NCBI GenBank assembly: GCA_030669695.1
Contig: DAOVDC010000002.1
Span: 1 to 23,977 of the forward strand
Source: Candidatus Bathyarchaeota archaeon
GTDB taxonomy: Archaea > Thermoproteota > Bathyarchaeia > Bathyarchaeales > Bathyarchaeaceae
DNA: 23,977 nucleotides
Reading direction: 5' to 3'
Below, piece by piece: positions 22,014-23,977 of this stretch. The notes under the pieces are model-generated. The model searched no databases. It was not told the DNA's origin and was given only the letters and a program-made list of their open reading frames with translations. Positions within the stretch are counted from its first letter, which is position 1. Every line of letters begins with the position of its first letter. The translations under genes and the position numbers were made by a program.

Positions 22014-22026
22014 TGCATGCATGCAT
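22014..22026. repeat. (ATGC)n palindromic tract, site 1
   Basis: TGCATGCATGCAT, about 25 bases after the TATA-like end of repeat copy 1. One of seven such tracts between 22.0 and 23.85 kb. It is a self-complementary, alternating purine-pyrimidine tract. Confidence 0.75.
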
Positions 22027-22059
22027 AACTAAGGAAAAATAGAAGGTTATCCTCTCAGA

Positions 22060-22081
22060 CATGAACTCTGCAAAATTCATG
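22060..22081. repeat. Hairpin at the 3' end of the Lrp-type gene
   Basis: CATGAA (22060-22065) pairs with TTCATG (22076-22081) around a ten-base loop, just past the stop of the minus-strand Lrp-type gene. A T5 run follows on the minus strand about 20-25 bases further. It may be a weak terminator. Confidence 0.35.
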
Positions 22082-22083
22082 GG

Positions 22084-22605
22084 CTATTGGTATTTTTTTA
22101 TGTAATCTGCCAAATATTTGAGGGTTAAATGCCTCAGGACTTTGTCACTCTTAAGGCTGATAATGAAACTGTCATATTTCGCTGTATACTGCCCACAATC
22201 CTTTTCGAAGTCCGTCCTGAAGTTTACAAAATCAGAATAGTCTCTGTGGACTGTAACAGTCATCCTACTAAAGCCGCAGCCCTGTCCAGAAGAGGCAAAG
22301 ATGATGTTGGGATGTTTTGAAAGAAATTTATTCATTTTTTTCATGAAATCGTTCATCTGACTGAGTGTTTCGTATCCTTCAGGCTTCCACTGGACAAAAT
22401 GGAGAGCCACGATTTCCATCCCCAATTTCGAAAAGTTTGGAATCGCAGTGTAATCAATTGAAAGTTCCTTTTCCATTTTGGCTCTTCTTCTGGTGACAGT
22501 GGGCTGAGAGACTCCAATGATTTCAGCCAGTTTCCTGTCACTTATTTTGGAGTTTTTCATCAACCCCGAGAGAATCTTCAAGTCAATATCTTTTATTTTC
22601 GTCAT
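22084..22605 (-). CDS. Lrp/AsnC-type transcription regulator
   Basis: A 173-residue DNA-binding protein. The N-terminal AsnC-type helix-turn-helix is clear: DIDLKILSGLMKNSKISDRK, then LAEIIGVSQPTVTRRRAKME. The rest (MEIVALHFVQWKPEGYETL, then SSGQGCGFSRMTVTVHRDYS) is alpha/beta but is not an obvious RAM ligand domain, so its effector is unknown. ATG at 22605 has no ribosome binding site; a CATAAAAAC element lies about 35 bases upstream (22637-22645), implying a nearly leaderless message. It is alone on its strand, flanked by two 35-bp direct repeats and by (ATGC)n tracts. It could bind these palindromes; this is untested inference. Confidence 0.88.
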   Translation of the reverse strand: MTKIKDIDLKILSGLMKNSKISDRKLAEIIGVSQPTVTRRRAKMEKELSIDYTAIPNFSKLGMEIVALHFVQWKPEGYETLSQMNDFMKKMNKFLSKHPNIIFASSGQGCGFSRMTVTVHRDYSDFVNFRTDFEKDCGQYTAKYDSFIISLKSDKVLRHLTLKYLADYIKKYQ

Positions 22606-22702
22606 ATCGCATCATTTATCATATCTTCTCTTAAGTGTTTTTATGACTTATGGAAGAAACTTCTAATGTTGAAACCTCTAAAAATAATGTATATCTAAAT
22701 CC

Positions 22703-22711
22703 ATGCATGCA
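22703..22711. repeat. (ATGC)n palindromic tract, site 2
   Basis: ATGCATGCA directly abutting the 5' end of repeat copy 2, about 100 bases upstream of the Lrp-type gene start on its side. Confidence 0.7.
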
Positions 22712-22745
22712 AAGTTTGCTTATCACCGATGTTCATTGAATATAA
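22711..22745 (+). repeat. 35-bp direct repeat, copy 2, promoter-like
   Basis: Begins AAAGTTTGCTTATCACCG and matches copy 1 at 32 of 35 bases. The end runs into GAATATAAAATAT (22738-22750), a good TATA box that would start transcription near 22770. The leader would be about 130 bases long before the frameshifted gene at 22902. A 6-bp hairpin AACATT/AATGTT (22768-22785) falls at the expected 5' end of that RNA. Confidence 0.7.
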
Positions 22746-22828
22746 AATATCAGTATGGTTAAGTTGTAACATTGGTTTTAATGTTGAATTTGGTATAAGA
22801 AAGCTTCAGCAAAATTAGTTCTCTTTCT

Positions 22829-22842
22829 TGCATGCATGCATG
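22829..22842. repeat. (ATGC)n palindromic tract, site 3
   Basis: TGCATGCATGCATG, immediately before AAAGGAGG (22845-22852). Its last ATG (22840) opens an 11-codon frame ending at 22875, in competition with the TTG leader frame at 22862. Confidence 0.75.
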
Positions 22843-22861
22843 GGAAAGGAGGTTTATCAAA

Positions 22862-22897
22862 TTGTCATTGACTAGAAACCTGTTGGTAAGGAGGTGA
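22862..22897 (+). CDS. Possible 11-residue leader peptide
   Basis: TTG at 22862 lies nine bases after AAAGGAGG (22845-22852) and encodes MSLTRNLLVRR. Its last codons and stop (AGG AGG TGA) are the ribosome binding site of the next gene (AAGGAGGTG, 22888-22896). Translation of the leader would cover that site, so it may couple or attenuate the downstream gene. The arrangement is seen; expression is inferred. Confidence 0.35.
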   Translation: MSLTRNLLVRR

Positions 22898-22901
22898 ATA
22901 T

Positions 22902-23133
22902 GTGAAAGAAAAAAAAAGAACTTGAGTGGTGGAAACATCCAACAGAGAAGACGAAGAGTAAAGTTGGATATGTTCAAGTTGGAGACACAATATTTGCCAT
23001 ATACATAGGTAAACATGGACACGACCTCGTCGAATGGGATCTAACCACAGGAAACTTCAAGTTCATTGAGCAAAAGGTCTCACTCGCCACGGCTATGACA
23101 AAGATGGCAGACCTTAGCAAAAACGACAAATGA
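22902..23133 (+). pseudogene. Small soluble protein gene, frame-shifted at an A9 run
   Basis: GTG at 22902 lies five bases after AAGGAGGTG, but its frame closes at TGA 22923. The coding sequence is in another frame, open after TGA 22903 and running to TGA 23131-23133. It reads ELEWWKHPTEKTKSKVGYVQ, then GDTIFAIYIGKHGHDLVEWD, and ends TKMADLSKNDK. The two frames meet in nine consecutive A residues (22909-22917). With eight A residues the protein would read MKEKKELEWW and be about 76 residues, soluble, with a beta-rich centre. No family is recognised. Options are a homopolymer sequencing error, transcriptional or ribosomal slippage, or a true lesion. The codon use and composition look like an intact gene. 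Confidence 0.65.
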
Positions 23134-23155
23134 TGACTTAACGTTGACTCCAATT

Positions 23156-23164
23156 TGCATGCAT
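23156..23164. repeat. (ATGC)n palindromic tract, site 4
   Basis: TGCATGCAT in the 132-base gap between the frame-shifted plus-strand gene and the convergent minus-strand zinc-protein cluster. Confidence 0.65.
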
Positions 23165-23177
23165 ACATACCGTTCCA

Positions 23178-23210
23178 ACCAAAAAAAGGATGAGTGTTTG
23201 TCAGACACTC
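23178..23210 (-). terminator. Intrinsic-type terminator of the minus-strand small-gene cluster
   Basis: On the minus strand, GAGTGT and ACACTC form a 6-bp stem around seven bases (23192-23210). ATCC and seven T residues follow. It lies about 55 bases after the last gene of the cluster (stop at 23266). A hairpin plus T-run is the expected layout for termination on this strand only. Confidence 0.6.
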
Positions 23211-23217
23211 TCAGGGT

Positions 23218-23244
23218 CCAGAGGTTGATGTCAACCCCTCTGGA
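23218..23244. repeat. Second hairpin before the terminator
   Basis: CCAGAGG pairs with CCTCTGG (7 bp), with an inner TTGA/TCAA pairing, between the last zinc-protein gene and the terminator hairpin. It may stabilise the 3' end of the cluster mRNA or act as part of a tandem terminator. Confidence 0.55.
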
Positions 23245-23252
23245 GCATGCAT
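23245..23252. repeat. (ATGC)n palindromic tract, site 5
   Basis: GCATGCAT directly beside the 7-bp hairpin and 14 bases past the stop of the last small gene. The shortest of the tracts. Confidence 0.55.
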
Positions 23253-23265
23253 ATTTGCTCACTTG

Positions 23266-23412
23266 TCATGGTCTTACACATTCCGCTTTTGGTCTATATG
23301 GTCTTTTCTTTTTTGGCTTGCTATGTTTCTTACATTTTTTAATGCAAACCCATACGCCTTGTTGAATTTTCCAAACGCAACCGCAAAGGTCTTTTCTAAT
23401 TTGTTCATTCAT
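23266..23412 (-). CDS. 48-residue cysteine-rich protein ending KAECVRP
   Basis: ATG at 23412 overlaps the TGA of the preceding zinc-finger frame (ATGA). The protein has CGC near 10-12, CIKKC at 23-27 and C45, followed by a lysine-rich run and KAECVRP at the end. Length, cysteine spacing around VWVC/LWYC and the last seven residues match the protein at 14880-15023, so I treat them as paralogues. A second frame (ATG 23408 to TAA 23274, 44 residues) also exists but lacks cysteines and the shared ending, so I reject it. It is the last gene before the terminator. Probably a zinc-binding, nucleic-acid-associated protein; function unknown. Confidence 0.7.
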   Translation of the reverse strand: MNEQIRKDLCGCVWKIQQGVWVCIKKCKKHSKPKKKRPYRPKAECVRP

Positions 23413-23620
23413 CTCTCAGCATACTCACAGTTTATGCATTTTCGGCGTTTTTTATCGGTTGTCGAAAATTCCTTTCCACAAAGTTCACAGATTTTTTCGT
23501 ATAGTGGTATTATTTTTCACCTCGTTCTTCTTTAGTCCAAGCCCATGTTTCTTCATCTAAAATCCAAATTGTGCCATGGTCCCAATCAGTTTGTGGTTTA
23601 TTATAGGTTTTTTTATGCAT
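23409..23620 (-). pseudogene. Small zinc-finger protein gene, split by a frame shift in an A5 run
   Basis: Frame one starts with ATG at 23620, inside an (ATGC)n tract, and encodes 36 residues (including DWDHGTIWILDEETWAWTKE) ending EERGEK at TAA 23510. Frame two begins there in the -1 frame and encodes IIPLYEKICELCGKEFSTT, then DKKRRKCINCEYAER, ending at TGA 23409. A slip on AAAAA (23513-23517), or one extra A, joins them into a 70-residue protein with a CxxC...CxxC zinc site. Frame two has no start of its own; a GTG at 23520 is in the third frame. It could be a programmed -1 event, a sequencing error, or decay. The stop overlaps the next gene's ATG. Confidence 0.6.
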
Positions 23621-23627
23621 GCATGCA
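23615..23627. repeat. (ATGC)n palindromic tract, site 6, containing a start codon
   Basis: ATGCATGCATGCA. On the minus strand its last ATG is the start codon of the 23409-23620 gene (Met-His-Lys-Lys), so a protein bound here would also block initiation. Confidence 0.75.
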
Positions 23628-23638
23628 AATGCGGGTTC

Positions 23639-23749
23639 TTACCAGATTTGTTTTTTCCAAACGTTGTATGGACATTGACGCCAACAGTAAGAAGAACCTT
23701 TGAAGCTACAACCCTTACATTGCACAGTAGAGAACATGCGAGATTTCAA
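23639..23749 (-). CDS. Tiny zinc-binding protein, 32-36 residues
   Basis: TTG at 23749, eleven bases after AGGAGA, or ATG at 23737, opens a frame ending at TAA 23639. The peptide includes VQCKGCSFKGSSYCWRQCPY, with four cysteines as CKGC and CWRQC, then VWKKQIW. The two CxxC/CxxxC pairs about ten residues apart can bind one zinc ion. It lies 19 bases upstream of the split zinc-finger gene in the same direction. Its TTG start overlaps the stop of a possible 28-residue frame upstream. The small size limits certainty, but the cysteine pattern is unlikely by chance next to two other cysteine-rich genes. Confidence 0.55.
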   Translation of the reverse strand: MKSRMFSTVQCKGCSFKGSSYCWRQCPYNVWKKQIW

Positions 23750-23832
23750 AAATCGTTACTTCTCCTATGAAATTCTAAGGTTAGCGGGCTATAAGAATCT
23801 TTCAATTCTCCTGTAAGCAACAGTAGATGCAT
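23746..23832 (-). CDS. Possible 28-residue ORF starting in an (ATGC)n tract
   Basis: ATG at 23832 within the tract (Met-His-Leu-Leu) opens a 28-codon frame ending RRSNDF at TGA 23746, which overlaps the TTG of the zinc-protein gene. AGGAGA for that gene lies inside it, so it could couple translation. No cysteines and no family; it may be chance. Confidence 0.25.
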   Translation of the reverse strand: MHLLLLTGELKDSYSPLTLEFHRRSNDF

Positions 23833-23835
23833 GCA
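23827..23835. repeat. (ATGC)n palindromic tract, site 7
   Basis: ATGCATGCA. It contains potential ATG starts on both strands: minus for the 28-residue frame and plus for the interrupted frame at 23827-23930. Confidence 0.65.
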
Positions 23836-23930
23836 ACCATGGTATCGAATTTAGCCGTCAGAGTTCCGTAGAACCTGTAGTTAGGATCCTTAAGACTAAA
23901 GGGGATATCCTGGAGTGGGTCTGGAAATAA
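23827..23930 (+). pseudogene. Possible interrupted small gene near the window end
   Basis: ATG at 23827 opens 14 codons ending SNLAVRVP at TAG 23869. A different frame reads on from about the same place as VEPVVRILKTKGDILEWVWK to TAA 23928-23930, which looks coding but has no start. One base shift near AGTTCCGTAGAACC would join them into a peptide of about 33 residues. It is the third apparent shift within 1.1 kb. The evidence is weak, and no ribosome binding site is seen. Bases 23931-23977 hold nothing recognisable. Confidence 0.25.
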
Positions 23931-23977
23931 GTCACTTTTAGGATTTAACACAAATCTTAATATGATGTTGAAAATAA

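Follow-up and report, generated by a model that had tools for sequence, protein, structure and literature searches.

A putative array of mobile cassettes bounded by a short palindrome in Bathyarchaeia

Results

Seven palindromes divide the end of the window into segments

The DNA analyzed here is a stretch of 23,977 nucleotides from a Candidatus Bathyarchaeota archaeon (contig DAOVDC010000002.1 of assembly GCA_030669695.1; hereafter the window). Its last 2 kb hold seven copies of a 12–14 bp palindrome of TGCA units, (A)TGCATGCATGCA(T), the full 14-mer being ATGCATGCATGCAT. Strand matches to GCATGCA number 20 in the window against 2.7 expected, and 19 of the 20 fall at 22014–23835. Between these copies lie three minus-strand open reading frames (ORFs) for cysteine-rich microproteins: ORF1 (CKGC/CWRQC; 23639–23749; 36 aa from TTG or 32 aa from ATG), ORF2 (CELC/CINC; 23409–23510; 33 aa) and ORF3 (CGC/CIKKC; 23266–23412; 48 aa). 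ORF2 and ORF3 overlap in the sequence ATGA. Two further minus-strand frames, at 23510–23620 and 23746–23832, are without cysteine pairs. An earlier reading of the window (the original prediction) had reported these tiny frames at 23266–23832; they are present there with their cysteine pairs as described, while the palindrome between them had gone unmentioned.

From left to right, site 1 (TGCATGCATGCAT, 22014–22026) is followed by segment A (22027–22701, minus strand), which carries an Lrp/AsnC-type regulator gene (22084–22605, minus strand). Sites 2 (CATGCATGCA, 22702–22711) and 3 (TGCATGCATGCATG, 22829–22842) enclose segment B, 117 bp (22712–22828) with no listed ORF wholly inside. Segment C (22843–23155, plus strand) holds the frame KKELEWWKHP... 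(22912–23134, plus strand) and reaches site 4 (TGCATGCAT, then ACAT; 23156–23164). Beyond it, segment D (23165–23244) and segment E (23253–23614, minus strand), the latter with ORF2 and ORF3, are parted by site 5 (GCATGCAT, 23245–23252). Site 6 (ATGCATGCATGCA, 23615–23627) leads to segment F (23628–23826, minus strand) with ORF1 and the frame at 23746–23832, and site 7 (ATGCATGCA, 23827–23835) to segment G (23836–23977), which is cut by the window end.

We compared the window with other genomes, designated by G-numbers, and their contigs, designated by C-numbers; the nearest to the window are G001 and G004. Six of the seven segments, all except C, match one or the other of these two on several contigs and in both orientations. 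Segment A occupies the same place in G001:C22 and G004:C10. Part of segment E (23259–23539) matches G001:C44 and, reversed, G004:C16. Segment F matches G001:C31, G001:C30 and G004:C10, with a different left neighbour each time. Segment G adjoins F also in G001:C31 and is reversed in G001:C30, and the last 67 bp of the window, within G, also match the first segment behind a recombinase gene in G001:C19. In most comparisons, the matches of E, F and G start or stop at a palindrome. The frame of segment C had no match among the loci compared. On the plus strand at 22897–23134, a good ribosome-binding sequence is followed by an ATG immediately before a TGA, and the GTG start of the KKELEWWKHP... 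frame fits only with slippage in an A9 run; sequencing error, frameshift or decay could be involved.

These comparisons bear on how the small genes are organized. The original prediction had taken them for one co-transcribed operon of zinc microproteins, closed behind ORF3 by two hairpins and a T7 tract. The hairpins and the tract are indeed found, read on the minus strand at 23165–23244, although this stretch overall folds no better than shuffled sequences (z −0.10). They make up a third segment, D, which lies apart from ORF2 and ORF3 in G001:C24 and elsewhere in G004:C16. The overlap of ORF2 and ORF3, the only two that travel together, would suit an operon. ORF1 and the terminator-like stretch, however, are separate segments with other neighbours elsewhere; ORF1 and the ORF2–ORF3 pair are on different contigs in G001 and in G004, and the pair is reversed in G004. 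A single operon for the whole set was ruled out because ORF1 and the pair lie on different segments, and we find the co-transcribed set barely credible.

The cysteine-rich frames have conserved relatives

Relatives of ORF1 were found in 18 of 30 Bathyarchaeia genomes, a set of our own choosing. Those of ORF2 occur in G001 and G004, and those of ORF3 in the same two genomes and also in G051 and G020. All 23 aligned copies of ORF1 (one place counted twice) retain its first three cysteines, and 21 of the 23 the fourth. Uncorrected pN/pS ratios (non-synonymous to synonymous change) were 0.08–0.44 for ORF1 (15 pairs), 0.04 for ORF2 (8.5 synonymous and 1.5 other changes between the window and G001 or G004), 0–0.11 for ORF3 and 0.14–0.29 for the frame at 23746–23832. 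Since relatives exist across genomes, the cysteines are kept and the changes are mainly synonymous, the three cysteine-rich frames are, as judged from these alignments, real and conserved genes. In this respect the original prediction of cysteine-rich microproteins is supported.

Stop codons interrupt the ORF1 copies of G001:C30 and G021 and two distant copies (G016 and G022), which counts against this. ORF2 has no ATG, GTG or TTG start in the window; the codon is ATA here and GTG at the aligned place in G001 and G004. The frame at 23510–23620 had no relative among the loci compared, and the homology of its segment to G001 and G004 stops at 23538–23539. For want of a relative, this frame was ruled out, both as a gene and as a part of ORF2 fused by frameshift. 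The ATG of two small minus-strand frames, at 23620 (MHKK...) and at 23832 (MHLL...), lies inside the palindrome, which could thus supply start codons.

No Pfam model exceeded its cut-off for ORF1 (best 14.7 against 27 bits) or ORF2 (17 against 26.5 bits). ORF3 matched no Pfam model, nor did it have a match in a search of a large protein set. The cysteine pairs of the three products suggest that they may bind zinc and perhaps nucleic acid. ORF1-type microproteins are a multi-copy family in their own right: the maximum was seven matches, in G033 (G033:C44, C33, C72, C55 and C11), a genome without the palindrome, and four matches were seen in G008 (G008:C172, C126 and C219 among them).

Sequence and distribution of the palindrome

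G001 contains 42 copies of the 12-mer TGCATGCATGCA and G004 contains 79; base composition predicts about 0.1, and the reversed word is found in neither. When up to 2 mismatches from the 14-mer ATGCATGCATGCAT are allowed, the 1.68 Mb examined in G001 and G004 contain 231 sites, and the reversed control gives 5. No conserved letters extend beyond the 14 bp in these 231 sites. Among 204 sites, the flanks outside the 14-mer pair at chance level (0.263; control 0.264), and the sites show no better folding than they do when one flank is swapped. Sites avoid genes: only 21 of 207 lie inside ORFs of at least 100 aa, though such ORFs cover 79% of that DNA.

Within the class, 48 of 256 genomes contain TGCATGCATGCA, and the 13 that hold at least 8 copies all belong to two families (f1 and f6); the reversed word is present once each in 3 of the 256. 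Beyond the class, 6 of 169 genomes of the phylum (200 drawn, minus 31 already examined) have one copy and none has more. The 14-mer was also seen in 65 viral contig stretches, 63 of which hold it once. Other words are over-represented in the G001 and G004 stretches, namely GCGCGCGC (60 against 6 expected), TATAGGGGGG and TAGACCCCCC.

Segments change neighbours at the palindrome

Of the 148 homology ends that lie away from locus edges, 48 have a site within 15 bp on one or both sides, 28 of these on both; about 2.6% would be expected. Ends belonging to the same cassette are not independent, so that a p-value should not be taken literally. Next, 1.19 Mb of G001 was searched for the counterparts of 160 sites taken from the window and the G004 stretches, with 320 intergenic points as controls. 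No match was obtained for 75 sites and a match that stopped short for 26 (controls, 160 and 48). The flanks were contiguous with the site conserved in 14 cases and without it in 8 (controls, 1 and 78). Only one flank was found for 31 sites, the match ending at a G001 site in 15 of them (controls, 28 and 2). The flanks lay in two places in 5 cases and were separated by an insert in 1 (controls, 4 and 1). In the opposite direction, 244 G001 sites and 488 controls were looked up in the smaller G004 set. This gave 150 sites without a match and 29 stopping short (controls, 336 and 64), 14 contiguous with and 7 without the site (2 and 51), 40 with one flank, 17 of them at a site (34 and 4), 3 in two places (1) and 1 with an insert (0).

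Individual loci are consistent with these counts. A single site in G004:C4 corresponds, in G001:C15, to the same flanks around an insert of about 1.4 kb with a site at each end; the insert holds a frame of 411 aa, whose start is in the left flank. A relative of the Lrp-type segment A is inverted within the same kind of flanks in G004:C23. A 768-bp HAD-type hydrolase cassette is present on G004:C10 and, reversed, on G004:C12, the two copies being 99% identical within unrelated flanks. Cassettes are also common to different genera (G004:C1 and G013:C74, 83%; G001:C19 and G013:C82, 73%). Together, these comparisons show, at the level of sequence, breakpoints at the site, one empty/occupied pair, one inversion, one duplicated one-gene cassette and sharing across genera. 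We conclude that the segments are very probably mobile at the palindrome. The original prediction, which had called the genes perhaps mobile, is backed here more strongly than its reader could know, and its interpretation overall is partly supported.

Two other explanations of the breakpoints were weighed against these data. The palindrome could be a regulatory or chromosome-structure site, bound for instance by a dimeric regulator, with breakpoints that merely reflect intergenic rearrangement, and the mainly intergenic position of the sites would agree with this. Matched intergenic points, however, were changed in 33 cases and contiguous in 79, as compared with 37 and 22 for the sites, and one-sided matches stopped at a site of the other genome in 15 of 31 cases against 2 of 28 controls. 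The regulatory reading is therefore disfavoured and, in our estimation, improbable. A short repeated word could also have joined unrelated pieces during assembly, since G001 matches a Candidatus Bathyarchaeota metagenome assembly. This is highly improbable: junctions recur, 14 of the 160 sites keeping site and both flanks between G004 or the window and G001; F and G are adjacent both in the window and in G001:C31; and the single-contig genomes G010, G196 and G197 hold 13, 22 and 35 copies. Moreover, 12–14 bp is below the usual assembly word length.

Tyrosine recombinases beside the arrays

Tyrosine recombinases were found in 25 of the 27 genomes searched. A serine resolvase was ruled out as the enzyme (0 of 25 genomes), and so was the idea that all tyrosine recombinases are alike in this respect, since a site lay no further than 300 bp from 4 of the 15 resolved (18 asked), the share among 516 ORFs being 29%. 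One recombinase subgroup stands apart: of its 17 members with room, 9 have their first site 2–381 bp past the stop codon, with as many as nine sites within 6 kb. A site lies within 200 bp downstream in 8 of these 17, against 16% of 735 ORFs (p 0.003). No upstream site was present in the 3.8 kb examined for G013:C74 or in the 8.9 kb for G009:C6. The orthologous recombinase genes of G011 and G004 are followed by DNA that shares 88% identity as far as the first letters of the G011 site; past that point the two sequences cannot be aligned.

All eight recombinases scored exceed the PF00589 cut-off, and the catalytic residues R138, K163, R232, H255 and Y264 are kept in 94–100% of 34 aligned rows. 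The recombinase has 1840 protein relatives below 1e-20. The predicted model of a close relative (80% identical; predicted local distance difference test, pLDDT, 85.8; predicted template modelling score, pTM, 0.66) ends in a small beta-alpha-beta-beta element after the tyrosine, and its fold matches XerA, the integron integrase IntI4, the Tn1549 integrase and XerH. No relative of the recombinase turned up in the viral contigs scanned, which lends nothing to the suggestion, made in the original prediction, of a viral origin. All 176 plasmid records matched are below 60% identity, with 25–27% among the ten matches listed. Repeated words were sought beside recombinase relatives (30 loci and 20 larger ones), and no clear second type of site emerged. 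Downstream of a recombinase relative in G149:C5 (L167:3738–3892) is a 17-bp tandem repeat with TGACAATTGT, and four spaced GTTTAAGCCGAGGAGCTTT-type repeats lie on the 3' side of a close relative in G057:C41 (L186:415–4009), a genome without the palindrome. Across the 256 class genomes, the closest relatives of the recombinase follow the palindrome, with exceptions: 10 of the 12 genomes with a match below 1e-90 have at least 8 12-mers, against 3 of the 244 others. On balance, this co-distribution and the location of the arrays suggest that the subgroup tyrosine recombinase is the enzyme acting at the palindrome.

Shuffling could, on the other hand, be real and have no dedicated enzyme, if the palindrome were a place where DNA is broken or cut, by an endonuclease or as a cruciform, with the ends re-joined by microhomology and the arrays beside recombinases being general insertion hot spots. 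That the palindrome is bare, lacking any recombinase-arm signal around it, and that the recombinase link is statistical and has exceptions both speak for such a process. It accounts poorly for whole genes lying exactly between two sites, for the empty/occupied pair, in which the site is intact on either side, and for arrays that begin right behind recombinase genes. We regard this explanation as unlikely, yet as one to be taken seriously.

Cargo of the arrays

The recombinase-side arrays carry genes for a TATA-binding protein, an AAA ATPase with a PALP-type enzyme, an HTH_10 regulator and a molybdopterin oxidoreductase; a separate G013 array carries a nitroreductase gene. The TATA-binding protein gene looks intact (L147:4853–5410 in G004:C1; PF00352, 205 bits) and lies in the array behind the recombinase. 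Related cysteine-bearing proteins of 77 and 90 aa, without a Pfam match, are encoded in the G004:C1 and G013:C74 arrays, on segments that are 83% identical. Pfam searches on 101 of the 124 listed between-site ORFs matched 118 families, each with at most 5 members. A gene-free 73-bp hairpin segment recurs in G001 and G004 (L036:6837–6909, L126:19911–19979, L102:1575–1643, L037:8051–8117, L046:6508–6577 and L148:1725–1798), some copies being between palindromes. Neighbouring cassettes are in the same orientation in 17 cases and in opposite orientation in 11 (10 arrays; p 0.34 against even odds).

Discussion

The data presented here make it likely that the end of the window is an array of mobile cassettes, shuffled in Bathyarchaeia in an integron-like manner on an unrelated short site. 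A cassette would be a gene, a pair of tiny genes or a hairpin alone between 12–14 bp palindromes ATGCATGCATGCAT. Recombination between two palindromes would insert, remove, invert or re-join cassettes and leave the site intact, and cassettes could enter either way round because the site is its own reverse complement. The enzyme would be a tyrosine recombinase of about 290–330 aa, often with the array behind its stop codon; excised cassettes may be circles, and the cysteine-rich microproteins would be cargo.

Several observations weigh against this interpretation. The evidence is all comparative, recombination itself not having been observed. The match of segment E also stops within the segment, at 23538, those of segment A run 12 bp beyond the site, and a third copy of the HAD cassette, in G004:C2, has no site at its ends. 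As regards the enzyme, tyrosine recombinases as a whole are no closer to sites than other ORFs, and those beside arrays do not form one clade in the tree. Upstream sites exist at 8.5 and 9.1 kb in G004:C1 and at 5.8 and 8.5 kb in G039:C10; at equal room, 24 sites are downstream against 12 upstream (p 0.065; 12 members with room on both sides), and G004:C19 and G197 contradict the downstream position of the array. The cut of 1e-90 behind the co-distribution of recombinase and palindrome was set after the table had been seen; the next genome, G024 (1.3e-89), is without the palindrome. Recombinase relatives below 1e-20 occur in 141 of the 256 genomes, mostly without it, and G138 and G057 have close relatives and no palindrome. 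Conversely, G010, G012 and G002 hold 13, 10 and 8 copies without a match below 1e-90. Finally, a bare 14-bp site is short for the tyrosine recombinase class.

The system works like an integron, and it lacks three of the integron features tested. For archaeal integrons, Ghaly et al. (2022, PMC9668308) report attI, and with it the array, behind the recombinase gene. Here too a tyrosine recombinase gene borders cassettes that are short, mostly with one gene each, and arranged in tandem; in 9 of 17 recombinases, a site follows the stop codon within 400 bp. Arrays are also found far from any recombinase. As regards the IntI-specific extra domain near patch III, the sequence match to IntI4 (2a3v) covers residues 224–269 only, and the model matches the fold of 2a3v with a template modelling (TM) score of 0.58. 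By contrast, the eight recombinases score 46–75 bits against TIGR02249 (IntI), whose cut-off is 265. The site is a bare 14-bp palindrome with non-pairing flanks, whereas attC consists of long imperfect inverted repeats that fold; the window had no Rfam match and the sites do not show attC features, no dedicated attC scan having been made. Cassettes here lie in both orientations, those of integrons generally in one.

Other known systems resemble this one in part. Bacteroides Mpi, shufflons and Mycoplasma vsa invert segments at short repeated sites spread over the genome; the segments described here, in addition, change place within and between genomes and are organized in one-gene arrays. Xer/dif systems have one dif per genome, whereas many sites per genome are seen here. 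The archaeal XerA proteins (PDB 4a8e and 5hxy) are the nearest solved sequence relatives and share the fold, but the eight recombinases reach 76–103 bits against the NF040815 cut-off of 220. In Thermococcales, inversions by the pTN3 integrase (PMC5495485) are a case of archaeal rearrangement beyond ordinary homologous recombination; as far as the accessible part of that report goes, these are large inversions, and no cassette arrays at one short palindrome are described. A word search of the review 'Archaeal tyrosine recombinases' (PMC8371274) gave no occurrence of 'cassette' and one of Bathyarchaea, for topoisomerase IB. Literature searches, including one for TGCATGCA, gave no description of such a system among the matches listed, which is no proof of absence since subscription papers and preprints were mostly outside the search.

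The chances seem to us evenly balanced that Bathyarchaeia evolved their own, integron-independent cassette-capture machine, in which a non-IntI tyrosine recombinase acting on a bare 14-bp palindrome turns genes, microgenes and terminator-like or hairpin pieces into exchangeable, flippable modules chromosome-wide and between species. If this is true, gene shuffling across whole genomes takes place in lineages of an archaeal class that is large and mostly uncultured, without the integrase type or the site of the integron and by a recombinase with a very short, orientation-free site; search tools based on IntI and attC would overlook the system. Such shuffling would help account for patchy gene content in these archaea and would provide a home for conserved microproteins that gene callers miss.
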